Source: Salinivirgaceae bacterium (lineage in GTDB: Bacteria > Bacteroidota > Bacteroidia > Bacteroidales > SZUA-534). Taken from it: a stretch of 36,580 nt of DNA. A program made the translations under genes and the position numbers. Below are positions 9,775-36,580 of this stretch, in pieces (the stretch's first letter is position 1; each line of letters opens with the position of its first letter). The notes below the pieces were generated by a model. It had not been told where the DNA came from and ran no database searches. It saw only the letters and a list, made by a program, of their open reading frames with translations. The DNA is taken from contig JAGCFC010000121.1 in the NCBI GenBank assembly GCA_017650325.1, positions 1 through 36,580 on the forward strand, written 5' to 3'.

Positions 9775-10755
9775 ATGGCAAAAGCACAACAACGGTCACA
9801 GCTGCCAAAATTCACATCAATGGCTGTCCTTATTGATGGTGAAAATGTTGACAGACAGAAGATAGAGTCGATTCTTGCCAGAATTAGCCAATTCGGAACC
9901 ATCACCACCAAACGCGTATACGGCGATTGGTCGCAAGAAAAAATGAAACTTTGGAACGATACGGTGTCGGTGTGTGCGTTGCGCACAATGCACCATTACG
10001 TTCACAGCACGCAGAAAAACACCACCGATATAGCAATGGTGATTGACGCCATGGATTTGCTGCACACAGGCTTGTACGACGCATTTGTGATAGTGTCGAG
10101 CGATGGCGATTTCAGCAACCTTGCCGTTAGAATACGCAACGAGGGAAAGTATGTGATAGGTGTGGGGCAGCGTAAGACCAACCATAACTTTATTTCGATA
10201 TGTGACGCCTTTGTGAATCAGGACAGACTGGCATCGTCGGATTGCTGCATCGATACCGAAAAACTGAAGAATATGGTGAACGTGCTGAACTCAAAGATTG
10301 CCGAAAAGAATACAGCCTTGCAGGAACAGCGCAAAAAAGTCACTGAAAAGAATAAGAATCTGGCCGATTTGCGGAAGGAATTGTCAGAGACGAAAAAGAG
10401 TTTGCGCACATCAGCCGGCGGGGTGAAAAAACTCGAATCTCAAATGGCTAAACTCCAAAAGAGTAACGAGTTGCTGAAGAAAAAGGTTGAAGTGTCGAAG
10501 GCTCGTTTAAGAGACAAAACAGCAAAAAAATTCATCGATCTGCTGCTGAATGCAATTTCAGGCGAGGAGATAGGAGAGAACAAGTATCCGCTCGATATTA
10601 TCGGCAAGAAAATCAGAATCGAAAATCCTGGTTTCAGACCATCGGACTATGGCTTCCCGACGTTGTCGAAACTTATTTGTTCGGTTCCCGGTGTCGAAAT
10701 GCAAACGGAACAGAATCGATTGGTGTTCTCGTTCTCGAAAGAGAGTTCAAACTGA
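9775..10755 (+). CDS. NYN-domain (LabA/DUF88-like) protein with coiled coil and OST-HTH/LOTUS domain
   Basis: This is a predicted RNA-acting protein of 326 aa. Residues about 10-150 form a NYN PIN-like nuclease domain: acidic residues in AVLIDGENVD, in TTDIAMVIDAMDL and in VSSDGDFSNLAVRI. Residues about 165-240 are a strongly charged coiled coil (KIAEKNTALQEQ, LADLRKELSETKK). Residues about 245-320 resemble an OST-HTH/LOTUS fold (KFIDLLLNAI, FRPSDYGFPTLSKLI, VPGVEM), which is associated with RNA binding. It begins 33 nt after aroC and precedes a strong terminator, so it is probably transcribed with aroC. The substrate is unknown. Confidence 0.85.
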   Translation: MAKAQQRSQLPKFTSMAVLIDGENVDRQKIESILARISQFGTITTKRVYGDWSQEKMKLWNDTVSVCALRTMHHYVHSTQKNTTDIAMVIDAMDLLHTGLYDAFVIVSSDGDFSNLAVRIRNEGKYVIGVGQRKTNHNFISICDAFVNQDRLASSDCCIDTEKLKNMVNVLNSKIAEKNTALQEQRKKVTEKNKNLADLRKELSETKKSLRTSAGGVKKLESQMAKLQKSNELLKKKVEVSKARLRDKTAKKFIDLLLNAISGEEIGENKYPLDIIGKKIRIENPGFRPSDYGFPTLSKLICSVPGVEMQTEQNRLVFSFSKESSN

Positions 10756-16792: not shown

Positions 16793-16793
16793 A

Positions 16794-17717
16794 TTAACCG
16801 AGTTTAAAACGTTCTAATTCGGACAATAACAACTCATATTGAACTTTTGTAATAGCTTCTGGCAATATGTCTCGTCGCATCCGAGGAAAAGTCTTATTAC
16901 CAACTTTATACGTATGTTTTGTTCTCAAAACAAATACATTATTATCATTTTCATTTGAAAAGTCGAATCCATAAAGTTGCAACTTGTTCATAAACGTCTC
17001 TCTTTGAACTGTGTTTGTCAACAAAGCAATAATATCATTAACAAGTTGATTGATTCTAATTCCATCAAAAGATGGACTCATTTTCTCCAATTCATAAACG
17101 ACTAAATAACCATCTATATCACTATCTAATTGTTCAATGGACGAGATACGGACTGTTTCTTTTCCAAAGTTGATAGTTTTAATTTCAAACCAATCCTTTT
17201 TATCAGAGAAATCTTTGTGTGTTTTCTCTGGTCCCATCCAACTCTGAAGAGCAGTATCAATACCTCTTTCTGGTATCATGTAATCTTTAAGGAATAGTAG
17301 TTCGCCTATTAATCCCATTATTTCTGCTTCGGCCATACGTGCATTATCCGGTCGGAAGAGTTGTCTCCATGAGTAATAACGAGAACGCAAAGTATGATAT
17401 GCCGTTTCGTCATCAGTTAATACTTTAACAGAATCAAAAAGATCCTGACAAAAAGTGCAAAAATACTCCAGTAAGTCATTATTCTCCAATGAGAAGCGTA
17501 AAGTTAACAAATCCTCGTCTGCATATTGTTCCACAGCAATGACATCTGAGCTGGAAATCCTAATCGGTTTATACTTCCCCCTAAAATCAAATGAATATCG
17601 AGCATCATCATCTCGGCCTATATATAAACTTAGATAACGATTTTCTCCAAAGCGAATAAAATTGCGACTTGGAAAATCACCACGGAATATCTTATATATT
17701 TCATTATTCCTCATCAT
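16794..17717 (-). CDS. DUF4420 PD-(D/E)XK-motif nuclease
   Basis: It is a predicted restriction nuclease of the Z1/MORC operon. The active-site pattern is E in MGLIGELLFLKDY, D in GPEKTHKDFSDKKDW and the E-x-K pair in WFEIKTINFG, followed by VRISSIEQLD. The frame is open to 17798, but that reading overlaps 95 nt of the Z1 gene; the paired ATGs at 17717 and 17714 give M(M)RNNEIYKIF and an overlap of about a dozen nt, which fits the tight spacing of this operon. The length from there is about 306 aa. Cleavage is presumably directed by the ATPases and blocked by the 5mC mark, by analogy with restriction systems. Confidence 0.85.
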   Translation of the reverse strand: MMRNNEIYKIFRGDFPSRNFIRFGENRYLSLYIGRDDDARYSFDFRGKYKPIRISSSDVIAVEQYADEDLLTLRFSLENNDLLEYFCTFCQDLFDSVKVLTDDETAYHTLRSRYYSWRQLFRPDNARMAEAEIMGLIGELLFLKDYMIPERGIDTALQSWMGPEKTHKDFSDKKDWFEIKTINFGKETVRISSIEQLDSDIDGYLVVYELEKMSPSFDGIRINQLVNDIIALLTNTVQRETFMNKLQLYGFDFSNENDNNVFVLRTKHTYKVGNKTFPRMRRDILPEAITKVQYELLLSELERFKLG

Positions 17718-20592
17718 CTTCCTCTTCGGGTTCTTCCCCCTCAATATTAAGTTGTTGAAAAATCTTGTTGACCTGATATTTAATAGCCTTACCTTCATCT
17801 TTTATGCCTGGAAAACCCGCAGCAAAAGCAACAATACTGTCTTTCCCCAATGCCTTTCTATAGTTTGTTAAATATGTTTTTTCTTCTTTAGTCTCGTTTT
17901 TGCTATTGTCTGGTTCTTGCGGTTTTATGAACATAATTATAAGAATCGGATTTCGTTTGGGAAGAAATCTAAAATAGGCTCTAACAGGAATTTCTCTTCC
18001 TTCTGTTTTTTCATCATCTTCTTTCCATAATTTTCGTTGCTCTAATTCTGCTTTTTTAATGTCTTCTTCAGAAAGCGCAAATTGCCCCTCCATATTTCCC
18101 GTTAAAACACGACGACGAGAACTAATCTGGATAATATTACGATTGGTGTCACAAATGGAACGTAACATGCATTTTATCGGAGGAAGGCCATCTATGTCAT
18201 ATGTTTCTTCGGATTTGCCACTTTCAAATACAATACTCCACCAATTCATTCCTTCAGTTTCTTCATTTTCCAAAAAATCAATAATATTTTTTGCGTCAAA
18301 CCGAGGATTGGCCATAGAGTATTTGATATCGCGTAAGAATTTAATTACAATGTCTTTGGGGACATCAGCGAAATAGCGAGAACTACCATCAGAATGGTCA
18401 TCCACGTTCTTATTAGCTTTTTTGTAATCAGCATATTTAAGTTTATAACCCTGACTGAAAAGATTGGCCACAAGCTCCCGTACTTTTTTTGTGTTGATTC
18501 TATTATGCTCGATGTTTGATGTTATATATGGAGTATCATAAATGTTGCCATAGAATGTTTCCATAACATCCTTACTTGCAGCTGTTCTCATTTTGTTAGA
18601 AGCTGTAATCTGCAACTCGTCGCAATTGTCTCGAACCTTAATGCCAAAATCTTTAGGAGTCAGCCTTTGGTCAAACATTTCACGAATGTCGTTTTTCAAC
18701 TCTGCCGATGCACGTGCAACTTCGGCATACCATAATGCACTGGTTTTGCTGGTCCATATTTGAAATATGTCCTCGTAACCTCCACGATAGCCAAACCAAC
18801 GCCCCATCTGCATCAAGACATCAAATGTGGCTGTATTACGATAAAAATAGCTAATCATTAAGCCCTCCAATGTCAAACCTCGTGAAAGAGCAAGTCCTCC
18901 TATGGCAATAACGCGCATATCAGGATTATCCTTATAATTCAGAGAATCACTTTGCTTAGAAGCATTAACCATCTTTATCTCAATCTTTTCCATCGCATTC
19001 AAAAGCATTGTTTTTTGCGAAACGCGTTCAAATGTTATATCTTCAACATTGCCAAAATGCTTTTCCCAAATAACTTGCAGTTCTTTATAAAGTGGTAAAT
19101 GTTTATTCTTACTATTGTCATCACTGAAATTCACACGTATGTCGTTGTAAATGTCTTCGAACCATTTAGCGACTTTTTCAGTAATAATTTTCTGAACGTG
19201 AATGAATCTTGACATATTCACCAACATGCTGCGTGGCTTATCTCCTTGGCCTCGCGCATCACGTATGACATTTGCCAAACAAAAACATATAACAGCTTCG
19301 CGAAGCGAATCAGGCAATATGCCGTTCCATTCTTTTTTGTGTTTATAGTAGAATTGACCAGAATTTAATACTTCGGGGCAGTTTTGGCTAAGTTCTCGAT
19401 ATTCATCAGATGTGTAATCTGGCTCTGTCAAATCATTAATGTAACGCAGATTCCCATAAAATTGTCCTTCTGGGAAAAATATTTTATCTGCTCCGACATA
19501 ATTAGATGGAGCTTCTAACGCATAAATAAAATGTTCAGGAAAAAGGTCTGCATGCTGCATGTCATTTACTGAATCCGGATCAATGAATACATTCGCAAAA
19601 GGTGTAGCTGTAAATCCCACATAAGTAGCATTCTTGAATAGATTGCATATTTTGCGGATTATATTGTTTGTTTTGGTCGGATTGGTTTCTTCTTTCCTTG
19701 TATTTACAGACGCATTATCAGCTTCGTCATCAACAAGCAACATTGGGACATCTACATAGCCTTTAACGGGATCAATATTCTGTTCCTTCAACCAATTGTA
19801 TAGTCTTTCCAAAACAGATACGTTTTTCTTCACTACAAAAAGTACCAATGAGTTACTGGCCAACGACATTGTTATCTTGTTGCAATTACCAACAAAATCA
19901 TTCCATGTGGATGTAACAGATGTTGCCTTGATAGGCTTGTTATCTAATCCTACGCCAACTCGTGGATATTTATCAAAATTACCTTCCTTTTTTAAAGTGA
20001 TTCCAACAATACCTTCATCAATTCTCACTTGAGTTTGTTGCCGAAGACTTTCTGTTATGCCAGCCAGTAGAATAACGACCTTATAACCAGCATCTGCCGC
20101 TTTACAAATCAATCCTGTATATGTGGCGGTTTTACCAGATTGAACATCTCCGATAATAAGCCCCCGACGAAGACGTTTCCCTTCAAACTTTTCATTAGGG
20201 TTTCCCAAACAGTTCATGATGTCAGGCAACGTATCGTCTTCCAATCGGTTGATGCTTGCTCGACTAATAGTTGTATTGTTGATGAGATGATTCTTGTAAC
20301 GAGGCCAAAAGAATGCATCGCTAATATTCATATTGGAATACCAATCGCGACTTTCATCATAATTGTTGTATATGGCATGACCTTTAGGATGAACAATCTT
20401 GAATTCATATTCGATATCTACAAATAATCTATCTCTTGTTTCTTTATCACAAGGCAACTGTGAGATTTTTATGGCATCATCAATGAATGAGTCAATATCC
20501 TCTAATTTTAGTTCTTTACCACTAATCTTTGCGACATCAATTAAATTCTTGACTATTTGTCCAAGCAAACTATATGATTTTTCGTCTATCAT
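17704..20592 (-). CDS. Z1-domain P-loop ATPase
   Basis: This 962-aa ATPase has a helicase-like core. Walker A is GDVQSGKT at 148-155 and Walker B is LLVDDEAD at 285-292. The late motif RVIAIGGLALSRGLTLEGL, followed by LMQMGRWFGYRGGYED with its arginine fingers, corresponds to the end of a superfamily 2-like motor and is characteristic of Z1 proteins. The C-terminus is acidic. Its ATG overlaps the GHKL ATPase stop by 4 nt, and its own end overlaps the DUF4420 gene. It probably translocates or remodels DNA to license cleavage; that role is inferred from its consistent pairing with MORC-like ATPases and nucleases. Confidence 0.93.
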   Translation of the reverse strand: MIDEKSYSLLGQIVKNLIDVAKISGKELKLEDIDSFIDDAIKISQLPCDKETRDRLFVDIEYEFKIVHPKGHAIYNNYDESRDWYSNMNISDAFFWPRYKNHLINNTTISRASINRLEDDTLPDIMNCLGNPNEKFEGKRLRRGLIIGDVQSGKTATYTGLICKAADAGYKVVILLAGITESLRQQTQVRIDEGIVGITLKKEGNFDKYPRVGVGLDNKPIKATSVTSTWNDFVGNCNKITMSLASNSLVLFVVKKNVSVLERLYNWLKEQNIDPVKGYVDVPMLLVDDEADNASVNTRKEETNPTKTNNIIRKICNLFKNATYVGFTATPFANVFIDPDSVNDMQHADLFPEHFIYALEAPSNYVGADKIFFPEGQFYGNLRYINDLTEPDYTSDEYRELSQNCPEVLNSGQFYYKHKKEWNGILPDSLREAVICFCLANVIRDARGQGDKPRSMLVNMSRFIHVQKIITEKVAKWFEDIYNDIRVNFSDDNSKNKHLPLYKELQVIWEKHFGNVEDITFERVSQKTMLLNAMEKIEIKMVNASKQSDSLNYKDNPDMRVIAIGGLALSRGLTLEGLMISYFYRNTATFDVLMQMGRWFGYRGGYEDIFQIWTSKTSALWYAEVARASAELKNDIREMFDQRLTPKDFGIKVRDNCDELQITASNKMRTAASKDVMETFYGNIYDTPYITSNIEHNRINTKKVRELVANLFSQGYKLKYADYKKANKNVDDHSDGSSRYFADVPKDIVIKFLRDIKYSMANPRFDAKNIIDFLENEETEGMNWWSIVFESGKSEETYDIDGLPPIKCMLRSICDTNRNIIQISSRRRVLTGNMEGQFALSEEDIKKAELEQRKLWKEDDEKTEGREIPVRAYFRFLPKRNPILIIMFIKPQEPDNSKNETKEEKTYLTNYRKALGKDSIVAFAAGFPGIKDEGKAIKYQVNKIFQQLNIEGEEPEEEDDEE

Positions 20593-22094
20593 GATGACAT
20601 AAAATATTGAAGGAGTTTTGTTTTAACATCTGGATAATTACAAAGTGGCTCGGATTTCATTATCTCTTCGATGATTGTTTCTGCGCCATCATTGCGCACT
20701 TGCATCAAAGCAGAGACTAATGATACCCCGATTTGGTATACATCGTCCACGCGGTTGTCCGTATTGTCCTCTAGAGCAATCGCTTCATTACTTTTGTCAA
20801 TGTATAATTGCTGAATAGGAATATTTTTCTCGATTTCTGACAAGAGCATTTCCAAATAACCATAATCCTCATCACTCATTTTGTCACGGACAAATTGGAA
20901 AAGTTTGCTTTCTCGATTAATCTGATAAAAGAACGTGTTATTCCGACCTTCTTTACGATCCCATATATAATCTATGTCATCGTTAATCTTTTTAGAACGC
21001 CCTCTGTAGTTTTGTTGACGAGTAGAAAATTCCAAAGCTTCTTCAATTGCTTTCTTTAGCCTATTAAGAATTTGTTTGGGAATAGATGCTTGTTGCTTTT
21101 TAATATCAATCGACCAAATATCATCGAGCGAATTAGGAATGTCAACTCGAATACGGACATTCTTGGTTAATTCTGCAGGTTGCTTTATTCCAAACCATTT
21201 CCCCCAAATAATCAATCTTTTATTTCTGTAGATATAAAAGCCTTGCTTAGAACGCATATTATCTAAGCCTCCCACGAGTCGCTTATCTTTAGTGCTTAAT
21301 TCAGTTGCAAACGGCAGAATAAATGGACGAACGTGAATATAACGTTCAATTCCATCACTATCTTTTACGTCTAATATGATTTCTTTCTTGCGCGTTGTCT
21401 TTGGATGTAATTCAAGGAATGGGTCTAAAGGCTTTATATCTAACTTATTAATGAAAATATGTAATCGTGCATTACCCGTTTCGGAAATGAAGCGATGAAA
21501 AATAAGTGACAATGAATTTTCCAAAGACAAGCAATACTCTTTTAATGTTGAAAATACTTGTCCTCCACTTGATTTTGATATTACATCAAAGTCTTGCCAT
21601 ACTACCAATGTCCCTTTTTTCTGTGATTTAAGGTTTTCAATATATGGGAGAGCATCTATTTCGGATTCATTGAGTTCTTGAATCGTCCAATCCTGTGTTT
21701 CAAGAATATGTTTGTAATCCCAAGTATAGCTATTAAGTGATTTGCCATCGAAACTGATTACAGTCAAACATCGACATTGCGACAATGAGGCAGATTTCAT
21801 CCCCATTCCGAATCGGCCTAAATCATCTTCGTTACGTTCTTCATCAGCAGAGTTACTTCCATATCTCATCGCTTCAAATAACACGTCAGCGGACATTCCA
21901 TCTCCATCATCAAGAATACCCAGAGCCAATTCATCCATTGGACTTGTTGGAAATAAGATATGAACGTTTTGCGCATGTGCACTAATACTATTATCAATCA
22001 CATCAGCCACGGCGGACTCAAAAGAATAGCCCATTGACCGAAGTGATTTCATAAGTGTTGAAGCCTTCGGAATGTGTATTTTATCAGTGCTCAT
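20589..22094 (-). CDS. MORC/MutL-like GHKL ATPase
   Basis: It is a 501-aa Bergerat-fold ATPase. The N-box AVADVIDNSISA has D31 where most family members have Glu, and N35. The G1 box is LDDGDGMS (61-68), and LGRFGMGMKSASLS (92-105) is the G2 lid. These match MORC-type proteins found in predicted prokaryotic restriction systems more than DNA repair MutL. ATP-driven dimer clamping on DNA is the known behaviour of the fold. The start overlaps the methyltransferase stop by 11 nt. The C-terminal 250 residues do not show a motif I can name. Confidence 0.88.
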   Translation of the reverse strand: MSTDKIHIPKASTLMKSLRSMGYSFESAVADVIDNSISAHAQNVHILFPTSPMDELALGILDDGDGMSADVLFEAMRYGSNSADEERNEDDLGRFGMGMKSASLSQCRCLTVISFDGKSLNSYTWDYKHILETQDWTIQELNESEIDALPYIENLKSQKKGTLVVWQDFDVISKSSGGQVFSTLKEYCLSLENSLSLIFHRFISETGNARLHIFINKLDIKPLDPFLELHPKTTRKKEIILDVKDSDGIERYIHVRPFILPFATELSTKDKRLVGGLDNMRSKQGFYIYRNKRLIIWGKWFGIKQPAELTKNVRIRVDIPNSLDDIWSIDIKKQQASIPKQILNRLKKAIEEALEFSTRQQNYRGRSKKINDDIDYIWDRKEGRNNTFFYQINRESKLFQFVRDKMSDEDYGYLEMLLSEIEKNIPIQQLYIDKSNEAIALEDNTDNRVDDVYQIGVSLVSALMQVRNDGAETIIEEIMKSEPLCNYPDVKTKLLQYFMSS

Positions 22095-23163
22095 GCTCTT
22101 TCGTCAGTTTTACTATTTGCTGAAATACTGCCTTTGATAGTAGCGGAGGCACTGCATTCCCGATTTGTTGCTGAATGTGCGTTAATGTACCATCAAATAC
22201 AAATGAATCAGGGAAGCTTTGAAGGCGGGCTGCTTCTCTTACAGAAATACCCCTATCTTCCCATGGGTGTATCAACATACTTTTTCTATAATTGGAAATC
22301 ACAACTGATGGTTGATCCTCCCTTAAGCGTTTATAAATGCCACTATGGCAACGATTTTTATCCGCATAGTTTTGCATTAAAGAATCTGGTATCGCACGCC
22401 AGTTTTGCCCCTGTCCAATATATTTATATCGCTCTATTACCAAATCATTATTTCGTGAAACAAAGTTTTGACGTGCCTTATCAGACCCCTTTCGCATTAA
22501 CCTTGCGTATTCGCTGGCATCTTTAAAAGATTGAGTGTATGAAGCTTCTTCCAATAATTCTCCATTTTTTAATGATGGCAAATCACTTATTGCTTCTTTT
22601 ACTGAAATTTTAGATGGATATTTTTCGGGGAATTTGTAGTCAATTCCTAATCTATTACCAACCAAAAAGAACCGATTTCGATTTTGAGGAACACCGTAAT
22701 CAGAAGCCCAAAGTATATCTGATGTGATGTTGTCGTATCCTTTAATGGCGCGAAACTGATCTTCAATCATTGTACGAGTTTTACCCTCGTTTATATTCGT
22801 TATTCCCCATACATTTTCAAGAACGAACCATTCGGGTCTGATTTCTTTAACAAAGCGGACAAATTCTTGAAATAAGAAATTCTTCGCGTTTTCCATGTTG
22901 CGTGTTCTTGTATTTGATAACGAAAATCCTTGACATGGAGGGCCTCCCATTATTACAAAGACCGTTTTCTTGTCGTTTAATAATGCTTTGGGTTCTATAT
23001 CTTTAATATCACATTGTAGTACATTCGCATCCTTATGATTTCGTTTAAAAGTTTTTGCCGCATTTGGATCAATTTCTATGGCATCACTTATATTTATTCC
23101 AGCCATTTCTGCACCTAAACTTAAACCTCCTGCACCAGAAAATATGTCTATTCCGTATAACAT
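22084..23163 (-). CDS. C5-cytosine DNA methyltransferase
   Basis: It methylates cytosine in a specific DNA site, presumably to mark self DNA for the operon. The ten-motif order is present: DIFSGAGGLSLG (I, 6-17), GGPPCQGFS with catalytic C77 (IV), PEWFVLENV (VI), YGVPQNRNRFF with RxR (VIII), and RLQSFPDSF plus QQIGNAVPP at the end (IX-X). At 359 aa it is a full-length monospecific enzyme with a modest target-recognition region. It is the first gene of the five-gene minus-strand operon. Its upstream region carries repeated ACAAGT half-sites and no recognised controller gene. Confidence 0.95.
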   Translation of the reverse strand: MLYGIDIFSGAGGLSLGAEMAGINISDAIEIDPNAAKTFKRNHKDANVLQCDIKDIEPKALLNDKKTVFVIMGGPPCQGFSLSNTRTRNMENAKNFLFQEFVRFVKEIRPEWFVLENVWGITNINEGKTRTMIEDQFRAIKGYDNITSDILWASDYGVPQNRNRFFLVGNRLGIDYKFPEKYPSKISVKEAISDLPSLKNGELLEEASYTQSFKDASEYARLMRKGSDKARQNFVSRNNDLVIERYKYIGQGQNWRAIPDSLMQNYADKNRCHSGIYKRLREDQPSVVISNYRKSMLIHPWEDRGISVREAARLQSFPDSFVFDGTLTHIQQQIGNAVPPLLSKAVFQQIVKLTKEHEH

Positions 23164-26622: not shown

Positions 26623-26683
26623 CAGTTTTATTCAGATTAGTCTTTGGCAAATAAAAAAGGCCATCCTCATCGGATAGCCTTTT
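26623..26683 (-). terminator. Terminator of the AGCS symporter gene, repeated element copy
   Basis: It is the same element as at 25036-25098, differing by one indel and a few substitutions. The hairpin and T run face the minus strand, just downstream of the symporter stop at 26708. Confidence 0.75.
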
Positions 26684-26707
26684 AATAATTTATTGAACAC
26701 CAACAAA

Positions 26708-28270: not shown

Positions 28271-28420
28271 AACGCAACCAGATTTTTAGATTTCACTTTA
28301 TGCGCGTCAACTAAATGCATTGTTAAACACACACTTACATTCTAAATTTTGCGGCGCAAGATAGTTTTTTTCTGTTTTTCAGCAGAACAATTATTTTCAC
28401 TTTTGATTAGTCAAAAAATT

Positions 28421-28495
28421 GATTGCAAAATCGGCAAATATATGGTGCCCGAAACCATCAGGTTTGACTGGAAGGATGATGACTATCACGAGTGA
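28421..28495 (+). pseudogene. 3' fragment of a DUF5131 gene (right copy of direct repeat)
   Basis: These 75 bp encode the last 24 residues and stop codon of the protein at 13581-14384 (KIGKYMVPETIRF, WKDDDYHE), with two amino acid changes (Tyr to Cys, Glu to Asp). There is no start or upstream homology beyond a few bases. It is a non-functional relic. Confidence 0.88.
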
Positions 28496-28631
28496 GAGGA
28501 TGCGAATCGCACGACATTCGCTGCAAATTTTGAAGGAAATGTTGGTAAGATTCGCTTCAATTGCAAGAATACCAGTTATGTTTTGGGGAAGATAGGTAAG
28601 GCGGGGACAATAAATAAAAAGCCAACAAAAC

Positions 28632-28666
28632 GGGCGGAATCGATGATTTTTTAGCCGATTCCGCCC
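28632..28666 (-). terminator. Strong intrinsic terminator of a lost gene
   Basis: A perfect 11-bp stem pairs gggcggaatcg (28632-28642) with cgattccgccc (28656-28666). On the minus strand it is followed by a T-rich stretch. It lies about 20 nt downstream of the truncated reading frame ending at 28687. Confidence 0.8.
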
Positions 28667-28686
28667 TGATTGTGCTTGCTTATTTT

Positions 28687-28818
28687 CTAATCTAACGGGG
28701 CTGGCTCATCGTCTTCAATACTTCCTACGGGCGAAGCATCAAAAACCAAAAATATTTCAAGGAAAGCAGTCTCGCGGTAGAAATAGTTGGGGTCGTCGGT
28801 CTGTTTGTCCTCCCAAGT
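28687..28818 (-). pseudogene. Truncated 3' end of an unidentified gene
   Basis: The minus-strand frame reads WEDKQTDDPNYFYRETAF, then LEIFLVFDASPVGSIEDD, and ends EPAPLD before TAG at 28687-28689. A stop lies immediately upstream in frame (28819-28821), so only about 43 codons remain. The protein-like composition, core-type codons and retained terminator argue for a real gene end. I do not recognise the family. Confidence 0.5.
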
Positions 28819-28911
28819 TCACAAACTGTAGTATCACTACATATCAAGCGATTTGCGAAGAATATTTCCTTTGTACTAATTAAACAATAGAAAATTATTG
28901 CCTAGTGAAAA

Positions 28912-31206
28912 CTATTTACGCTGTTTAACCTCATTCCAAAAATTATAAAATTGTGATTTACAATCATCTTCAGCGCCAAGAATCTCATTGATTTCGTATT
29001 TAAGTCCATACGAAATTGTTGAAGCTTGTTTTGTCTTACCATCACTATGAATTTTTATAATATCATACTTTACCAACAAGGGTATAATTTCATCTATAAC
29101 CATTTTAGGATTACTAGATATATAAGAACCTTCCTCTATGTTCTTTTTATAAATCCAAGAAACTTTGGAATACTTATTAATTAATTTTTTTACAGTCTTA
29201 TAAAAATCTGTAGGTTCATATCCCGAATTAGCATCAGACATTATACTAATAATATTTGTTTTTATGCCATAAGCATTTAGCAACTTGTCAATTTGCGTAG
29301 GAGAATATTCCGAATCATAATTTATTCCGTCTGACGAATACGAAATGCTTTTTATATCACAGCTTTCAGTAATAATGACATTGTTGAATCTATTTTTCCT
29401 TCCATTAATCTTTAAACCGCTAAATGAGCAGTTTTCAAACTTAATATTAACTAGTTCTGTCTTCCTATAACTAATGTTAGTAAACGTGCATTTATTAAAC
29501 ACAATATTTTGAATTTTCTTATTTTCAAATACTAAACTAGAGAAAATGACATCGGATATTTCTATGGTCTCTGTATTTTGAATATTGTCCAAAACATACG
29601 GGATGATTGTTCCAACATTTGGTTGCACGTATGTAGGTTTCCATTCCTTTTGGATTATTGCGGTCAGCAATCCCTTAACTACACTAATTTTAGAACCATT
29701 ATCAATATTTTTCGCCAAATAATCTGCTACGGTATCTGGTAATTGTGCAGTGTTTAAAAATGCGCTTACATAACTCCATTGCCCTGTTCTAACAGCATCA
29801 TCTATTTGACCGCTTAATGCAATAGCAAGAAAATAGTTTTTAAACTCCTCGTGATCAAATTTACGATCATTATCATTTGTATTAATTAGCAATGCATAAG
29901 AATCTACCATCCTTAAAACTTTGTGCTTGATATCTTCACTTATTTTCCATTCTTCCATAAGAATAGTCAGCAATAATTGAATACTCTCTTTTGAAAGGAA
30001 ATCCTTTTTATTATTCCACATTTCCTCCGCGACAGTAGCTAAAAATTGCCTATGTTGTCCAAAGGTTAAATACGGTTCCCCCGTTATATTATCATTCGCA
30101 TTATTTGAAAATTTTTCAACCTCTCGTCGAATAAAAGCGTCTATTATTTCATTAATAGTATCTAAGTGATTGTCTGATTTCTTTACGAAATCAACTGGAC
30201 TGATACTATCGTCATACGAAAATTGAACTAATTTCGTAAAAAGGTATGGCCTTGCTAATAACGGGTTCTTGGGATTAAGTATTTTAGCTAATTCTTCATA
30301 GTCATTTTCGCTATATGCATATTCATCAAGATATTTAACACATTGTTCTTTTTCCCAATTTTTTATTTTTATCTCATTGAACATACAAGAATCTCCACTA
30401 TCAATATAATTATGTAGAATCCTTGTTTGTTGAATATAGTTTTGGGTATCAAAGAAAGTACGACGTGATGCCGCAATTAGCGCGCCATTGCCATCCATCT
30501 GAGATACAAAACTTGACAACGAGCCAAGAGCTTTTTCGCCTCCTATTTCCACAGCCAACTCATCGAAACCATCTATTCCTAAAACAACGAGTTTATGCTT
30601 TACCAACGTCAAAATTGTAGAATAATAGATTCCTCTTACTCGCAACTCCACCAATTCAAACATAATGGCCTCATTAAGTCTGACTAACTCACGACCATGC
30701 AAATCAATGTGTAAAAAAACATATTTACTTTTATGATCTAAAAACTCTTTTGCTTTTTTATATTGAAACTGCCTCAATAACATTGATTTACCGTATCCGG
30801 CATCCGCGGTAACGAAACAAATTTTAGTACCAGAATAATTACCGCTAATCTCTTTTTCCAATATATCTAGAGACGTTCCTTCTGTACATTCACCAATTTC
30901 ATTGTATAATATCGATTGAGAATCCACGAAATGAGACTCTACGTTGTACTTTTGTATTATTTTATCAGCCAAACAACTTAATTCTGCCAAAACCTCTCTC
31001 AAATATTTGGGGTATGGTACAAAGTTGGCACCATCATTAACCATTATCGTTCCCGTATCAACATCTTCAGATACATTTATAGAAATATCTTTTCCATTTC
31101 TACAGAACATAATATCTCCTGTATTGGAATCTGCAATCACTTCATACTCATCATCTGCAAATGACTGAATATCTTTGACAATATCATTAAATCTATTTTT
31201 ATTCAT
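28912..31206 (-). CDS. NACHT-type STAND NTPase with pentapeptide-like C-terminal region
   Basis: This is a 764-aa predicted signal-transduction NTPase. The N-terminal 100 residues show no known effector motif. The P-loop TADAGYGKS is at 133-141, Walker B/NACHT motif LVVLGIDGFDEL at 206-217, and a sensor-like AASRRT at 245-250. A KFDHEEFKNYFLAIAL segment (449-464) resembles the winged-helix end of NACHT modules. Residues about 556-620 form irregular pentapeptide-like repeats (IVFNKCTFTNI, VNIKFENCSFSGL), and a further 140-residue C-terminal domain follows. NACHT proteins in bacteria act as phage sensors (bNACHT, Avs-like); since no effector domain is fused, the overlapping NYN gene is the likely effector. 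The gene is AT-rich and last in the operon. Confidence 0.83.
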   Translation of the reverse strand: MNKNRFNDIVKDIQSFADDEYEVIADSNTGDIMFCRNGKDISINVSEDVDTGTIMVNDGANFVPYPKYLREVLAELSCLADKIIQKYNVESHFVDSQSILYNEIGECTEGTSLDILEKEISGNYSGTKICFVTADAGYGKSMLLRQFQYKKAKEFLDHKSKYVFLHIDLHGRELVRLNEAIMFELVELRVRGIYYSTILTLVKHKLVVLGIDGFDELAVEIGGEKALGSLSSFVSQMDGNGALIAASRRTFFDTQNYIQQTRILHNYIDSGDSCMFNEIKIKNWEKEQCVKYLDEYAYSENDYEELAKILNPKNPLLARPYLFTKLVQFSYDDSISPVDFVKKSDNHLDTINEIIDAFIRREVEKFSNNANDNITGEPYLTFGQHRQFLATVAEEMWNNKKDFLSKESIQLLLTILMEEWKISEDIKHKVLRMVDSYALLINTNDNDRKFDHEEFKNYFLAIALSGQIDDAVRTGQWSYVSAFLNTAQLPDTVADYLAKNIDNGSKISVVKGLLTAIIQKEWKPTYVQPNVGTIIPYVLDNIQNTETIEISDVIFSSLVFENKKIQNIVFNKCTFTNISYRKTELVNIKFENCSFSGLKINGRKNRFNNVIITESCDIKSISYSSDGINYDSEYSPTQIDKLLNAYGIKTNIISIMSDANSGYEPTDFYKTVKKLINKYSKVSWIYKKNIEEGSYISSNPKMVIDEIIPLLVKYDIIKIHSDGKTKQASTISYGLKYEINEILGAEDDCKSQFYNFWNEVKQRK

Positions 31207-32009
31207 ATTTCAGATATTTTGATATTTGGGTTAAACTTATACAGATAATTTGAATAATCCGTCAAACTTCTACTTTGCCGTGTTAATTCAGAATCGTCTA
31301 GATGGACATTGTTGTTAATTGCTTGTCTTGTTCTAATTTTCAAATTTAGCACGACTTCGCTATGTTTGATACTGCATAAAACAATCCCAGGAAACAAGTC
31401 AACGTCATTTGACAAAACATAAATAACTTTTGTTTTTTCATCCTCACCATAAGTCAAAATATCGCAAACCATAATACTATCAACCATCTTTTGCTCAATA
31501 CGATAAAAAACAGCATTAGTGTTCTGACAATTTGAAATATGACAAATTTTACTGCGTTTTTTGGTAAACTTTTTCAAAATGTTAACAGGACAAACATCTT
31601 TATTATCATCCTTCTCACATTCTATTCGACTAATATTAGAAGTGTTAACTACCAACTGAGGAAGTCCTTCTTTTTCTCTACAAGTATTATCCCAAACGCC
31701 ATCAACTCCAAACATTTGGTCCGCGATTTCAAGGGTTCCACTAATAGTTTTATTTCCATTGGGTACAGGAAACAAATCTACAGATACAGCACTTAACTTT
31801 TGTTGTATTCTAGACCCTTTGTTTGTCAATCCATTTTTGTCATACCAACCACCGTAAGCTCTCATAACAATATGTTCCACCGAATTATAATCACTTTTAA
31901 TTTCATTAATAATTTCGGTTAACAATGATTGAACATTACTTCCATCTTCACTATCATCCTGCTTAAAAATATTGTTATAATCAATTATTACAACTGCCGT
32001 ATCTTTCAT
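31203..32009 (-). CDS. NYN/PIN-like predicted RNase paired with the NACHT protein
   Basis: A 268-aa protein with the acidic residues of a NYN nuclease: D10 in VVIIDYNNIF, D177 and D183 in QKMVDSIMVCDIL, and D202/D204 in YVLSNDVDLFPGI. The order matches the (V)DG-N, K-x-VD-x5-D and S-x-D-x-DF pattern of the family. An insert between the first and second motifs carries C131, C140, C156 and C161, a possible zinc site. The start codon of the NACHT gene overlaps its stop (4 nt), so the two are produced together. A toxic RNase released by a sensor NTPase on infection is the most economical reading, but it is inference. It begins 19 nt after the upstream HIT gene. Confidence 0.78.
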   Translation of the reverse strand: MKDTAVVIIDYNNIFKQDDSEDGSNVQSLLTEIINEIKSDYNSVEHIVMRAYGGWYDKNGLTNKGSRIQQKLSAVSVDLFPVPNGNKTISGTLEIADQMFGVDGVWDNTCREKEGLPQLVVNTSNISRIECEKDDNKDVCPVNILKKFTKKRSKICHISNCQNTNAVFYRIEQKMVDSIMVCDILTYGEDEKTKVIYVLSNDVDLFPGIVLCSIKHSEVVLNLKIRTRQAINNNVHLDDSELTRQSRSLTDYSNYLYKFNPNIKISEI

Positions 32010-32028
32010 TTTCTTGTAATTATCATTT

Positions 32029-32910
32029 TTAATACTTCTGCTTCCCTGGTATAACTCCTCTCACCCCGCCTTTCGGGTTCTCAACATCGCCTTTATAGCG
32101 CGGAATCAGGTGAATGTGAACGTGAAAAACGCTTTGCCCTGCGGCCTCGCCAACGTTTATACCCACGTTGAAGCCATCGGGGTGAAAACGCTCCGCCAAC
32201 AGTTTTTTGCAATGGTTCACCAAAAGCCACAAGGCTCGCTGTTCACGTGTTGTTAAGTCGAAATAACTGGCAACGTGGCGTTTGGGGATAATCAACGTGT
32301 GGCCTTTGCTCACTGGGTAGCCGTCGAAAAAGGCCACGGCGGTGGCGGTCTCGCTCAACAATTCCACTTTCGGATTCAGATTGCAGAATGGGCAACCTTG
32401 GGCAATCTCATATTTCTTTTTGTAGTCGGTCTTGTTGAAGTGCTTGTACTCGTAGATTTCGCAATTCTCGTTTGCATATACGCTTTTGTACGGCAGCACG
32501 ACATTACACTGATAGGTGGGTTGCTTATGTACAAAATGCGTGCGGAATCCTTCGCTTTTCAAATCGCGGCGGACTGCGAAATAGGCGGTTCCCGTTGGTT
32601 TGAGCAGTTCTGAAACCGACATCAGCACTTCGGCCTGCTCTTCGGGTTCAAGAACATTGAGTACGTAATTGCAAATTATTGTGTCAAAGCGTTTTGTCGG
32701 GTACTCGGGGCGGTAATAGTTGTCGTAACCAACAATATTGTAGCCTTCTTTCTGAAGTTGGTCGGTGTCGAATCCAAAACCACAGCCGAAATCAAGAATC
32801 TCGCCTTTCAAAAGGTTGTTTTGTTCCAGCCAACGTGTTGGAAACGAATATGTTGTGCGCTCTTTGGCCGTCAAATGTGGGTTGTTCTTTATCTTTTTCA
32901 TCGCTCCCAA
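32029..32910 (-). CDS. Class I SAM methyltransferase fused to HIT-family hydrolase
   Basis: This is a 293-aa two-domain protein. Residues about 15-160 are a small Rossmann methyltransferase with SAM loop EILDFGCGFGFD (37-48) and acidic GYDNYY (61-66). Residues about 170-290 are a HIT domain with CPFC (173-176), PKRHVASYFDL and the histidine triad HVHIHLIP (263-270). HIT enzymes hydrolyse nucleotidyl bonds such as in Ap4A or adenylated proteins; the methyl acceptor is unknown. The start could be Met4 (32901), as the first codons overlap the upstream gene. Codon use is GC-richer than the NYN and NACHT genes that follow, so the operon is a compositional mosaic. Confidence 0.88.
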   Translation of the reverse strand: MGAMKKIKNNPHLTAKERTTYSFPTRWLEQNNLLKGEILDFGCGFGFDTDQLQKEGYNIVGYDNYYRPEYPTKRFDTIICNYVLNVLEPEEQAEVLMSVSELLKPTGTAYFAVRRDLKSEGFRTHFVHKQPTYQCNVVLPYKSVYANENCEIYEYKHFNKTDYKKKYEIAQGCPFCNLNPKVELLSETATAVAFFDGYPVSKGHTLIIPKRHVASYFDLTTREQRALWLLVNHCKKLLAERFHPDGFNVGINVGEAAGQSVFHVHIHLIPRYKGDVENPKGGVRGVIPGKQKY

Positions 32911-33956
32911 TATTTAAAGCCCATATTTTCAGCAATCTGCGCCAATGGCGAGAATGTCTTTTGAAAAACATTGCAAAAATCATCGTCTGACATACGAACC
33001 AATTCACCAACAGAATCATATACAGTAAGATAATCTTCGAGAATCTTGTTGTTAGGATTCTTCGGATAGATTGTTTTCAACGCCTTATGGTGCAACTCTG
33101 CATACGGCTTCAGGTAAACATCCAACGGCGGCAGATTGTTGCTTTTCGACGAATTAATGCTTGAATCGGCTGGCAACAAATTCCATAACAGATTGTGCGA
33201 CACAAAACTCCACGGGACAAAATGGTCTAAATCATAACCTTTCGCAACCAACAGATTGTTGGTATAAATGCAGCGAATTGAACCAACTGTTTCAATATAC
33301 GAATCCCAAAATTTGTGCTGCTGCATCAGCGAATCTCGCAAAATCGGCTTTATCAATTTTGACGGCACATCAGGCACATTCGGGTTGCGTTTTTGAAGAA
33401 ATTCCGTCAGATTCCAAAATGCGAAATCTTGCAAAATGCGATAGTGTTCGGAAAGATAGTCAATCCATTTCGGGTTCACCTCAACAAAGTCGCCATTTAT
33501 CGCATAAAGGCTCTCGTTTTCAAACCGTTGCGACCGCAAAACCACATCCTTGTCGGTAGTGTACTTTATCCACGGCGACAAAAAGCGATAAGGTACATTC
33601 AACGTGAACACCCGCAAAAGACTTTTAACCCGATTATTATCAATATTATCTATCAGTAATTGCTTGATTTTCTTTTTGTCGGCATCTATCGGAATATTCA
33701 ACTCCTTCTGTAAGGCCAACGACTGAACATACAATGAATCTGATTTGCCGAACGAAAGTTTGAAATAGTGAATCGGATACCACGATTCTGCCGCCATTCC
33801 TGCAATGATTTCCCAAAACGTAATCCTTGTTCGTCGCTCTTTTACAACGATTTCCAATATTGCCAAAAACCAGTAGAACTTGTACGTTGCGCTGGTGTTG
33901 CTGAATATCGCCGCAAGACTGGAAATGGGAAGCTTATGATTGTCTGGTAAAATCAT
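32898..33956 (-). CDS. HNH-type endonuclease
   Basis: A 352-aa protein with an HNH nuclease motif in its last third: the D244-H245 pair in GYDLDHFVPWSF, N255 and N259 in SHNLLWNLLP, and N268 to N273 in SINSSKSNN. Only one cysteine (CIYTN, C229) remains where some HNH proteins have a CxxC zinc knuckle. The N-terminal 220 residues are helical and basic (FYWFLAILEIVVKE, RYRILQDF-like segments) and are unlike domains I can name. It lies 11 nt downstream of the DUF5131 gene and overlaps the methyltransferase-HIT gene start, so it is part of the six-gene run. The target may be DNA or RNA; the motif alone cannot tell. Confidence 0.82.
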   Translation of the reverse strand: MILPDNHKLPISSLAAIFSNTSATYKFYWFLAILEIVVKERRTRITFWEIIAGMAAESWYPIHYFKLSFGKSDSLYVQSLALQKELNIPIDADKKKIKQLLIDNIDNNRVKSLLRVFTLNVPYRFLSPWIKYTTDKDVVLRSQRFENESLYAINGDFVEVNPKWIDYLSEHYRILQDFAFWNLTEFLQKRNPNVPDVPSKLIKPILRDSLMQQHKFWDSYIETVGSIRCIYTNNLLVAKGYDLDHFVPWSFVSHNLLWNLLPADSSINSSKSNNLPPLDVYLKPYAELHHKALKTIYPKNPNNKILEDYLTVYDSVGELVRMSDDDFCNVFQKTFSPLAQIAENMGFKYWER

Positions 33957-33967
33957 TTGAGTGCAAA

Positions 33968-34693
33968 TTATATTGGCATTTCCTGAACAACTTTGCCGTT
34001 GATTAATTTGCCATTCTTATGTTTATTGCGCTTAACACCATCACTTCCCCACGTTCCCCACTGTTTAAAGAAAAAGGCTGCGCCTTGTGCTTCTGTTTGT
34101 TGCTTAATATTCAACACCCAGTCCTCTTTCATTGGTCGTGCTTGCGGACCGCTTTCCCCACCAACAATTACCCAATCAATATTATTCAGATTCAATTTTC
34201 CCAAATCTTCAATCAAAGGCTCACACGAGAGGAACCGTATAGGCGCATCTAACACTCTTAAGCAATCAATACGTGATTTTGACGTTTGCGCCTCCACCGT
34301 AACACCAAGCCATACATTTTCGGGAACATTATGTGTTAAAAAATATTCTGCCATACGCTCTGCTCGTTTAGTCAACAACTGATACCTATGCTGTGGTGTA
34401 CGCTTTATAGTATTCATCACTTTATCAATGAATACAAAAGGAACATCCTTGTGGAACAAATCACTCATAGAGCAAACAAAAATGGTATGCGGATGTTGCC
34501 ATTCCAAAGGCTCTTCAAGGCAATCTTCGTGCAGAGTTACTTGAAACCCGTTTGCGTATTTATCAAGTCCCATTGCATTTAATCTGCGAGACATCACCTC
34601 CGCATAGCAATGTGCGCACCCTTGTGATATTTTTGTACACCCAGTAATGGGATTCCAAGTTTTATCAGTCCATTCTATTTTCGTGGTTTTCAC
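33968..34693 (-). CDS. DUF5131 (phage Gp37/Gp68-like) three-Cys protein with TcmP partner
   Basis: This 241-aa DUF5131 protein carries the C19-x6-C26-x2-C29 motif in WNPITGCTKISQGCAHCYAE. Other family motifs are VCSMSDLFH, LLTKRAERM, WLGVTVEAQ, FLSCEPLIEDLG and VIVGGESGPQARPM. The cluster resembles an iron-sulfur site of the radical SAM kind, though the spacing differs from the canonical CxxxCxxC. Its start overlaps the TcmP stop by 4 nt; TcmP was named for exactly this pairing. It is a distant paralogue of 13581-14384, and moderately AT-rich. The reaction is unknown. Confidence 0.9.
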   Translation of the reverse strand: MKTTKIEWTDKTWNPITGCTKISQGCAHCYAEVMSRRLNAMGLDKYANGFQVTLHEDCLEEPLEWQHPHTIFVCSMSDLFHKDVPFVFIDKVMNTIKRTPQHRYQLLTKRAERMAEYFLTHNVPENVWLGVTVEAQTSKSRIDCLRVLDAPIRFLSCEPLIEDLGKLNLNNIDWVIVGGESGPQARPMKEDWVLNIKQQTEAQGAAFFFKQWGTWGSDGVKRNKHKNGKLINGKVVQEMPI

Positions 34694-35808
34694 TTCTTTA
34701 CTATTTTATATATTACTATTCTATTCTTCTTGTACACTTGTTCATAATTAATCAATGGGGATTTTTCATTATAATCAATTATACCTTCTTTTTTCATTTG
34801 TTTTATTTTGTCTGAAGAGTGCGTAGGCAAATGCCCACATTCTAAAGTATAATCATAAACTTCTTTATTTGTGCGAAGGATTCCTTGAATGAGTTTTTCT
34901 TGTAATTCATTTTGGAAACGCTCTATTTTTGTTGGAAGTTTTCCGTCAAACAAACTTAACTGGACTTTTTTAAGGTCATCATCAATATCAAAATTTGCCT
35001 CTCCGTTTATATTGTTTTTATCCCAAGCCGTTTTTAAAAACTTGTCAACAGCTCGTGGATGTTTAGCCCCAAATATTATACCATATATGTTTGCGCCTTT
35101 TTTTATTGTAAATGGATAAAGTTTCAATTTGGAATTATTAGGCAACTTGCATTTTAATTGTTCAAGGATGCTTTTGTGGACATATTTATATGGGTTTTCT
35201 TTTATTCTATTTATATCTATTTTTAAATTAGTTTGAAATGCTTCAGTCTCACCAAATCTAATAAAATAAGATGAAGATAAAAAATACAAAAAGTCAGTTT
35301 GCGACAAACCTTCTAAATCTAAAAGGTATTTATCTGCTAAAAATTTCATTCCATTTTGGTCTAATAACACTAAAGACGGATTTGCCGATATAGTAGTTAA
35401 TGTTTTTGGAAATAGTTCTGCAAAATCACAATTTCGATAATGCAAAAACAAATATGTATCGGACAATCTAGCCAATTCGCTATCATTTTTTACAAACTCG
35501 TCACAACACTTTTGCAGCAAATTGTATTTCTCTTTTTCAAATTCATTTAAGCACATATGTATTTTGCATTTTTTATTGAAGATGTTGCCTGATTGTGCTT
35601 TAACTTGTTGTAGTAAACGAATTGGGCTACCTGCAATTCCATTAATATCACGACCCGTTCCTGCAAAAAAATCAAATATCCATAATTCCTTGTCTGGATA
35701 ACTCATAACAAATGTTGGCAACCACTCTTTCGCATAATTCTCAAATATTTCAAGTTTTGTGATAGTGCCATCATCAAATGGGTGGTCGTGTAAATCTCTT
35801 GTTGCCAT
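34690..35808 (-). CDS. tcmP: Three-Cys-motif partner protein TcmP
   Basis: A 372-aa protein starting with the family signature HPFDDGTITKLEIFENYAKEW (9-29, written in part: HPFDDGTITK, EIFENYAKEW), then WIFDFFAGTGRD (43-54), which looks like the SAM-binding loop of a Rossmann methyltransferase, and AGSPIRLL. The remainder contains the family's KFLADKYLLDLEG and FLSSSYFIRFGE segments. TcmP occurs as the companion of three-Cys DUF5131 proteins; neither function has been settled to my knowledge. It is the first gene of the minus-strand run and clearly AT-rich, pointing to transfer. Confidence 0.9.
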   Translation of the reverse strand: MATRDLHDHPFDDGTITKLEIFENYAKEWLPTFVMSYPDKELWIFDFFAGTGRDINGIAGSPIRLLQQVKAQSGNIFNKKCKIHMCLNEFEKEKYNLLQKCCDEFVKNDSELARLSDTYLFLHYRNCDFAELFPKTLTTISANPSLVLLDQNGMKFLADKYLLDLEGLSQTDFLYFLSSSYFIRFGETEAFQTNLKIDINRIKENPYKYVHKSILEQLKCKLPNNSKLKLYPFTIKKGANIYGIIFGAKHPRAVDKFLKTAWDKNNINGEANFDIDDDLKKVQLSLFDGKLPTKIERFQNELQEKLIQGILRTNKEVYDYTLECGHLPTHSSDKIKQMKKEGIIDYNEKSPLINYEQVYKKNRIVIYKIVKK

Positions 35809-36016
35809 ATACTTATATAAATTATAATTCCTTTTAGAGGTATATTATCCCAAGCAATAATTTACGAAGATAATCTGTAAATTTGACTTTTCGTAAGTAT
35901 TTCTGTTTTTTTCACATCATTAAGATTTGGCAACCTGACACATCACCTCTTTGCAATAGGTTCTTGCCAAACCAATCGGGAAGTGTCGCTTGCACATTAT
36001 TATTGCAAATAATAAA
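35809..36016. other. Region upstream of the tcmP operon
   Basis: An imperfect -7 box (TATCTTCG on the minus strand, about 35875) lies roughly 60 nt before tcmP and could drive the six-gene operon. The rest shows no ORF with support; composition shifts from AT-rich to core-like towards dnaK. Confidence 0.4.
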
Positions 36017-36046
36017 AAGCGCGCGATATACAAATACCGCGCGCTT
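36017..36046 (-). terminator. Intrinsic terminator of dnaK
   Basis: A 9-bp stem pairs aagcgcgcg (36017-36025) with cgcgcgctt (36038-36046) around a 12-nt loop. On the minus strand it is followed by tttttatt. It lies about 30 nt after the dnaK stop. Confidence 0.85.
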
Positions 36047-36075
36047 CCGACTTGTTGTATTTAACAGACAATCAA

Positions 36076-36580
36076 CTACTTAATTTCTTCGAAATCAACG
36101 TCAGTTACCTCGTCACCGCCGTTCTTGCCACCATTGTTAGCCTGCTGTTGCTGGCCAGCGTTTGGTTGAGCTTGTTGGGCTTGAGCCTGTGCGTTGTACA
36201 TGTCCTGCGAAGCGGCTTGGAATGCGGTGTTCACCTCGTTCATAGCAGCGTCGATAGCGGCAATGTCTTGAGCCTTGTGAGCGTCTTTCAGTTTGTTCAG
36301 AGCGCTCTCGATAGCCGATTTCTTGTCGGCAGGCAGTTTGTCGCCGTACTCTTTCAGGTTCTTCTCGGTTTGGAAAATCATCGAGTCGGCCTGATTGATT
36401 TTGTCGATACGCTCTTTCTCTTTCTTGTCGGCTTCGGCGTTGGCCTCGGCTTCAGCTTTCATACGCTTGATTTCGTCGTCAGACAGACCAGACGATGCCT
36501 CGATACGGATTTTCTGCTCCTTGCCAGTGGCCTTGTCTTTGGCCGAAACGTTCAGAATGCCGTTGGCGTCGATATCGAAT
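36076..36580 (-). CDS. dnaK: Molecular chaperone DnaK (Hsp70), C-terminal part, runs off the window
   Basis: The last 167 or so codons of the ATP-dependent Hsp70 chaperone. At the window edge the frame reads [16 protein letters not shown], the end of the substrate-binding beta domain, followed by the helical lid ([28 protein letters not shown]) and a Q/N/G-rich linker ending in [11 protein letters not shown], the conserved acidic tail that binds TPR-type partners. The N-terminal ATPase domain and most of the substrate-binding domain lie beyond 36580. It is a core gene and marks the right edge of the accessory island. Confidence 0.97.

Follow-up and report, generated by a model that had tools for sequence, protein, structure and literature searches.

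A conserved gene pair of a NYN-type predicted ribonuclease and a NACHT NTPase without a recognised effector domain: a candidate two-gene bacterial defence system

Can a bacterial NACHT NTPase that has no effector domain of its own act through a nuclease encoded by the gene beside it? The question is raised by a pair of overlapping genes in a 36 580-nucleotide stretch of DNA from a Salinivirgaceae bacterium (Bacteroidota, Bacteroidales; contig JAGCFC010000121.1 of assembly GCA_017650325.1), which at its full length is called the window here. Both open reading frames (ORFs), one for a NYN-type predicted ribonuclease and one for a NACHT (STAND) NTPase, lie on the minus strand where an earlier reading of the sequence (the original prediction) had placed them, and they overlap by 4 nt at an ATGA. 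We consider it probable that the two proteins form an anti-phage (or anti-mobile-element) system in which NACHT is the sensor and activates NYN in trans. The pair would be a NACHT/STAND defence whose effector resides in a separate, constant partner gene.

A collection of genomes was scanned with a profile built from three NACHT proteins (A1). Only NACHT peptides served as seeds in the NACHT scans, which therefore carry no bias towards adjacency; the scans are not exhaustive. The A1 scan yielded 14 loci, in Parabacteroides, Prevotella, Bacteroidaceae, other Bacteroidales, Maribacter, Prolixibacteraceae and Colivivens, as well as in two Microbacterium, one Acidobacteria metagenome-assembled genome (MAG) and one unclassified MAG. 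Two of the loci (L012, L013) are contigs of a single MAG, and L014 and L016 come from genomes (G402, G095) used to build A1. Matches L003, L004 and L006, confined to residues 548–633 of the pentapeptide-like region, were not counted. With the window NYN as query, a NYN ORF was found directly upstream of NACHT, on the same strand, at 14/14 loci. Frames are interrupted at two of them: NACHT of L020 is split over two ORFs, and in L016 (= L002/L008; L002 691–1457) the NYN frame breaks at a homopolymer that separates two conserved parts, through either assembly error or decay.

Distant NACHT relatives (20–26% identity) are present on 11 viral contigs. A single-sequence NACHT query gave no match in the viral collection; an alignment query matched these 11 contigs and a further scan (A5) returned the same ones. 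On 10 of the 11 a gene with the NYN motifs lies upstream of NACHT; on the remaining one, L028, the locus is truncated by the end of the contig. The NYNs of L024, L025, L026, L029 and L033 were found by the window NYN alone (E < 0.01), the other five were recognised by their motifs and with a profile of which they are members; L030/L031 and L027/L028 are near-identical. A scan of the viral collection with a NYN profile gave one contig, already known.

The pairing was also seen in loci that are in none of the alignments. Run on 395 genomes of the phylum, NACHT profile A4 gave 7 matches at E ≤ 1e-15, one of which is the window's own. Five of the six new loci have NYN upstream (E 3e-31 to 5e-38); the other is truncated at a contig end. 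In the reciprocal scan, NYN profile A3 matched in 14 of 395 genomes of the phylum, in which the same genomes recur, at E ≤ 1e-6. All six genomes with E ≤ 2.9e-30, the window's own among them, carry NACHT (6/6); the seventh NACHT genome, without a strong NYN match, is the contig-cut one. The other eight have partial NYN matches (E 2.6e-8 or worse) and no NACHT match at 1e-15. The idea that the pair exists only here is refuted by these relatives in genomes, on viral contigs and in the held-out scan. Homologues are adjacent at 14/14 genome, 10/11 viral and 5/6 held-out loci, and the two of these loci at which no NYN is visible, one viral and one held-out, are both cut by a contig end.

For quantitative comparison a set of 26 non-redundant pairs was used. 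L013 (same MAG as L012), L028 (the cut twin of L027) and L031 (near-identical to L030) are outside this set and outside A3 and A4; L020, with its split NACHT, was left out of A4 and the set, and L016, with its broken NYN, out of A3 and the set. Between the end of NYN and the start of NACHT there are −23 to +11 nt, when the earliest start codon in each frame is used. Pairwise distances among the NYN proteins follow those among their NACHT partners (r = 0.897), whereas shuffling of partners within three clades, drawn by hand by the analyst, reached at most 0.79 (0/5000 shuffles at r = 0.897). Its recurrence with such tight spacing at loci far apart puts the association beyond chance. Full-length NACHT relatives are rare: they occur in 2/99 relatives' genomes, in 3/393 genomes of the order and, at E ≤ 1e-15, in 7/395 genomes of the phylum (the window's own included in all three), and in the phylum of Microbacterium G408 in 2/396, one being G408 itself and the other the genome with L053.

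The window NACHT passes the Pfam family PF05729 over residues 130–262 (27.1 bits, cut-off 26.7). Its Walker A lysine K140, Walker B aspartate D212, R248 and H452 are unchanged in 26/26 rows, five of which lie outside alignments A3/A4, and P320 in 22/26. From NLR structures we take R248 to be the sensor arginine and H452 the winged-helix histidine. No family in Pfam, PADLOC or NCBIfam matches at E ≤ 0.1 before residue 124, which agrees with the predicted lack of an effector domain in NACHT, the nuclease being a separate gene. The first ∼ 85 residues are duplicated in the relative L005/L014 (G402), and because of these two copies we regard residues 1–85 as a separate small domain, which is proposed as a candidate NYN docking site. 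The pentapeptide-like region that had been predicted was found at residues 553–601 (Pentapeptide_4, E 4.8e-5, below the cut-off); with the C-terminal 160 aa it is likely to form the putative sensing region.

A possible link to Hailong was examined and rejected. NCBIfam HalA matches the NACHT C-terminus at E 1.8e-9, with 37.2 bits against the 250 bits needed, and HalA chain 9nyi matches the NACHT profile at E 0.00089, but the C-terminal 262 aa of the window protein alone give E 0.024 and the best stretch E 0.24; the likeness is confined to pentapeptide-type repeats shared with unrelated proteins. Fibrillarin-like matches at about residues 623–676 had no support elsewhere and were set aside.

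In the NYN protein, D10, R50, Y52, G54, W55, T109, K174, D177, D183, D202, D204 and P207 are unchanged in 26/26 sequences, and in all of them the catalytic aspartates stand in the order of the NYN motifs, as in canonical NYN. The residues singled out by the original prediction (D10, D177 and D202 of NYN, K140 of NACHT) are all among the invariant ones. The Microbacterium homologue L018 passes Pfam PF01936 (24.8 bits, cut-off 24.2). The window also encodes a canonical NYN protein (9775–10755; PF01936, 116.6 bits, over the cut-off), with which the NYN of the pair has in common the motif order LID, R-x-YG-W, K-x-x-x-D-x5-D and SSDGD. The 25-residue spacing between D177 and D202 equals that between D118 and D143 of a CRISPR-associated NYN ribonuclease of B. 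fragilis, whose conserved aspartates are D13, D118 and D143 and in which D13A abolishes RNA cleavage (PMC11346440, available part). That enzyme serves immunity, as is proposed for the window NYN, but works beside type III CRISPR, whereas the window NYN has a NACHT partner and an insert with four cysteines (C131, C140, C156, C161). The insert suggests a putative zinc-binding element; C131 and C140 are present in 18/26 proteins and gapped in 8. In the NYN alignment the gapped rows are viral-contig sequences (L033 is the exception, a viral sequence that keeps its cysteines). The PADLOC model HEC-09 shows a weak, partial match to the C-terminal half of NYN (window E 0.0017, L024 8.5e-5, L018 2e-7).

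Activation in trans is proposed because the STAND switch residues are kept, no effector is fused and an intact nuclease is always adjacent. In such a mechanism the pentapeptide and C-terminal region of NACHT would sense infection, nucleotide exchange in the NACHT core would make the NLR-like sensor assemble, and the small N-terminal domain would recruit and activate the separately encoded NYN. NYN would then cut RNA, either of the host (tRNA or mRNA) or of the phage, stopping growth or phage replication. We infer the NYN–NACHT binding, the sensed cue, the cutting of RNA by NYN and the direction of control. The direction could be the opposite one: NACHT might hold NYN inactive and release it on binding of a phage protein, the pair then behaving like a toxin whose very large antitoxin is also the sensor. 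Overlapping or abutting genes for a separate nuclease and ATPase, and co-occurrence both ways, would suit such sequestration as well. We think it unlikely, as R248 and H452 of NACHT are invariant; in known NLRs residues of this type belong to the assembly switch. Sequestration does have a precedent in PARIS, where the AriA hexamer holds AriB and frees it on trigger (PMC12409363, available part). PARIS is also a two-gene system with an ATPase sensor and a separate RNA-cutting effector (same source), these being an ABC ATPase and a Toprim nuclease where the window pair has NACHT and NYN. The window pair has no match to AriA or AriB in PADLOC.

In Avs/AVAST systems, too, a STAND NTPase is the phage sensor; the effector is usually fused to it, unlike in the window pair, and AVAST type I is multi-gene. 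Avs2 matches weakly to the relatives L026 (E 0.0018) and L024 (E 0.0065) and not to the window NACHT. Kibby and colleagues (2023) reportedly wrote the first bacterial NLR paper. According to the available part of PMC12169576, bNACHT proteins are tripartite, the effector being N-terminal; none is discernible in clade 14. The same part describes bNACHT25/32 and bNACHT02/12, which, as is proposed for the window pair, combine a NACHT switch, a C-terminal sensing region and phage defence; the PD-(D/E)XK effector of bNACHT25/32 is N-terminal in the same chain, whereas that of the window pair would be the constant separate NYN gene. The architecture had been called distinct, and this holds against the described bNACHTs. 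The DefensePredictor paper lists P-loop/NACHT systems, one of them a metallophosphatase–NACHT protein, and also two PIN systems; its available part has no NYN–NACHT pair (PMC13092281). Nor is the pair described in the available parts of four papers that mention both NACHT and NYN (PMC8195603, PMC3710099, PMC10853773, PMC10910872), and the main text of a BREX survey, as far as available, has neither term (PMC12839542). The literature searched, in which no description of a NYN–NACHT pair was found, is mostly open-access, and one may be in print elsewhere.

We lean towards the view that the pair represents a widely spread, undescribed two-protein immune system in which an effector-less, NLR-like NACHT acts through a NYN RNase dedicated to it and encoded separately. 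It would comprise three lineages or more: one of Bacteroidales/Maribacter/Microbacterium/Acidobacteria, one on viral contigs and one from further classes within the window's phylum. Receptor-to-effector signalling in trans is known from the APAF-1 ring, which recruits procaspase-9 (PMC13174449, available part); if the weapon of this conserved pair is indeed the second protein, such signalling would become open to direct tests in bacteria. In animals, NYN RNases take part in antiviral defence and in the control of inflammation (KHNYN, the Regnase family; sources available in part), to which the NYN–NACHT pairing would add a prokaryotic counterpart. Partner genes like NYN also suggest where to seek the effectors of clade-14 bNACHTs.

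In the window the pair forms the end of a string of six same-strand genes (35808–28912: TcmP, DUF5131, HNH, methyltransferase-HIT, NYN, NACHT) separated by −13 to +19 nt. The insertion that holds the string has a transporter gene (AGCS type, by eye) on one side and the 3′ end of dnaK (by eye) on the other. In G001, a genome of the same genus, the same two flanks are 128 bp apart, and NACHT has no match in 10/10 same-genus genomes, some of them incomplete. The empty site and these absences show that the pair is horizontally mobile. In G002 to G005 dnaK is followed by different genes, and an Hsp70 gene lies upstream of the pair in L020, the nearest relative; with the empty site in G001, this suggests that the dnaK 3′ end may be an insertion hotspot in this genus (compared stretches L108–L112). 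The AT-rich block that had been noted around the pair was recovered (GC 0.30–0.34 at 29–32 kb, 0.53 at 27–28 kb), as were defence-type neighbours: DUF5131 and TcmP (PADLOC PDC-M30B/A, NCBIfam TcmP), HNH and, farther away, MzaB/D/E-like genes.

Since the string is tight, on one strand and on one insertion, the pair may be co-transcribed with the four upstream genes. One could go further and take NYN–NACHT as an accessory arm, the late genes of a six-gene system. The immediate upstream neighbour, however, differs at other loci (assigned by eye to pooled family tables): it is a BsuBI/PstI-type restriction enzyme in L009, BrxL after PglZ in L017, a HEPN-like ORF (by eye) in L014 and a membrane ORF after a Schlafen-type ORF in L020. 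Over all loci the flanks thus hold BREX and restriction genes besides DUF5131. L020, the closest relative, does have DUF5131 and a TcmP-like ORF (by eye) 5–6 kb away, but on the opposite strand. We therefore regard a six-gene system as very unlikely and treat the four genes as a neighbouring module of the pair.

Members on viral contigs have genes of filamentous and tailed phages as neighbours: baseplate genes in L023 and L029, one for a head protease in L025, integrases in L032 and L033 and, in L030, a Zot-type filamentous-phage gene, a family matched by two of 91 viral flank proteins. The L026 neighbour matches a family of unknown function, and the L027 neighbour, when tested, matched none. 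These viral members, together with genome loci that have no visible defence neighbours, would also be in keeping with mobile elements that use the pair for regulation or RNA processing, for example to control the expression of prophage or island genes; NYN proteins perform cellular RNA processing as well (PMC11346440, available part). We give this hardly any credence: the scattered presence over phyla, the defence genes nearby and the STAND type of sensor agree better with defence.

The reading as a defence system with activation in trans was weighed against a number of contrary observations. The window NYN itself scores below the PF01936 cut-off (E 0.0023; 18.9 bits, 24.2 required). A profile comparison with canonical NYN aligns D177, D183, D202 and D204 with their counterparts but covers the C-terminal half only (E 0.0012, probability 19%), an agreement at motif level with weak statistics, and the NYN profile has no match among solved structures (PDB) at E ≤ 1. 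Neither protein passes an NCBIfam cut-off, and in PADLOC, Avs models included, the window NACHT matches nothing at E ≤ 0.1. No match was obtained in the plasmid collection with the window proteins, L030, L018 or L024, in the phage collection with L030 or L026, or in the E. coli collection with L029 DNA. For a related NACHT (L053; E 2e-22, open frame of 1097 aa) no NYN was found in the 3.9 kb stretch covered, 645 bases of which are upstream of NACHT; it looks like a member of another NACHT family. As to context, PADLOC at 1e-10 favours defence, with 169 families assigned to 127 flanking proteins and 5 to 124 control proteins; these are counts of redundant models and not of genes, with controls from part of the genomes only. 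The flanks are those of 12/14 genome loci, L012 and L013 being too short, and the controls come from 8 stretches of 5 genomes (12 were fetched, four dropped for size). ORFs were poorly called in the GC-rich Microbacterium loci, and the flanks of L066–L071 were judged by eye only. By eye, no defence neighbours are visible at L068 (between secDF/purA and metabolic genes), L016 or L022. The original claim of a defence system stands on the conserved pair and on defence neighbours at many loci, and does not extend to the surroundings of every locus; gene context supports a putative defence role.

Table 1. Coordinates of the pair and of the surrounding features in the window.
Feature	Position	Strand	Evidence
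NYN-type predicted ribonuclease, 268 aa	31203..32009	-	ORF list, Pfam, alignment
NACHT (STAND) NTPase, 764 aa, without recognised effector domain	28912..31206	-	ORF list, Pfam, alignment
NYN stop/NACHT start overlap, 4 nt, ATGA	31203..31206	-	Sequence
NACHT residues 1–85, small N-terminal domain; proposed (putative) NYN-docking adaptor	30952..31206	-	Two copies in L005/L014
NACHT NTPase core, about residues 129–263; Walker A GYGK140S, Walker B IDGFDEL 211–217, R248	30418..30822	-	
Pentapeptide-like stretch, NACHT residues about 554–601	29404..29547	-	
Inserted element, about 7.7 kb, transporter gene to dnaK 3′ end	28391..36076	.	Absent at same site in G001
TcmP, DUF5131, HNH, methyltransferase-HIT fusion; upstream in same gene string; neighbour module, not constant partner	32029..35808	-	

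Some further features were seen around the pair. The HEPN-like ORF of L014 (5947–7017, 356 aa) lies 11 bases upstream of NYN, ends in RNxxxH (by eye) and is possibly a further RNase or adaptor. In L024 and L030 the pair is near one end of a short viral contig and the two contigs have phage families in common, as if the pairs were cargo of small prophages. The ORF next to NYN in the window (32029–32910) joins a methyltransferase domain (like Dnd-related TIGR04096, E 1.7e-15) to HIT (E 5.5e-24). Matches of the window HNH protein to Cas9 are weak (PADLOC, E 0.00051 and worse; no CRISPR repeat search was made). Proteins with PF01936 matches like that of the 9775–10755 NYN (E about 1e-31 to 1e-33) occur in 10/11 genus members searched, the window's own included.

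Farther along the window (14672–23163), an MzaE-like (14672–16792, PADLOC E 2.9e-63), an MzaD-like (16794–17798, 4.1e-12) and an MzaB-like gene (20589–22094, 4.8e-62) are adjoined by a C5 DNA methylase (22084–23163); the MZA-like genes score below the NCBIfam cut-offs and perhaps belong to a divergent MZA-type system. A short intergenic stretch (window 26648–26684) recurs near the same site in G001/G002 (L108 845–875, L112 9334–9370), with 31 bases identical in one match and 37 bases at 89% in the other.

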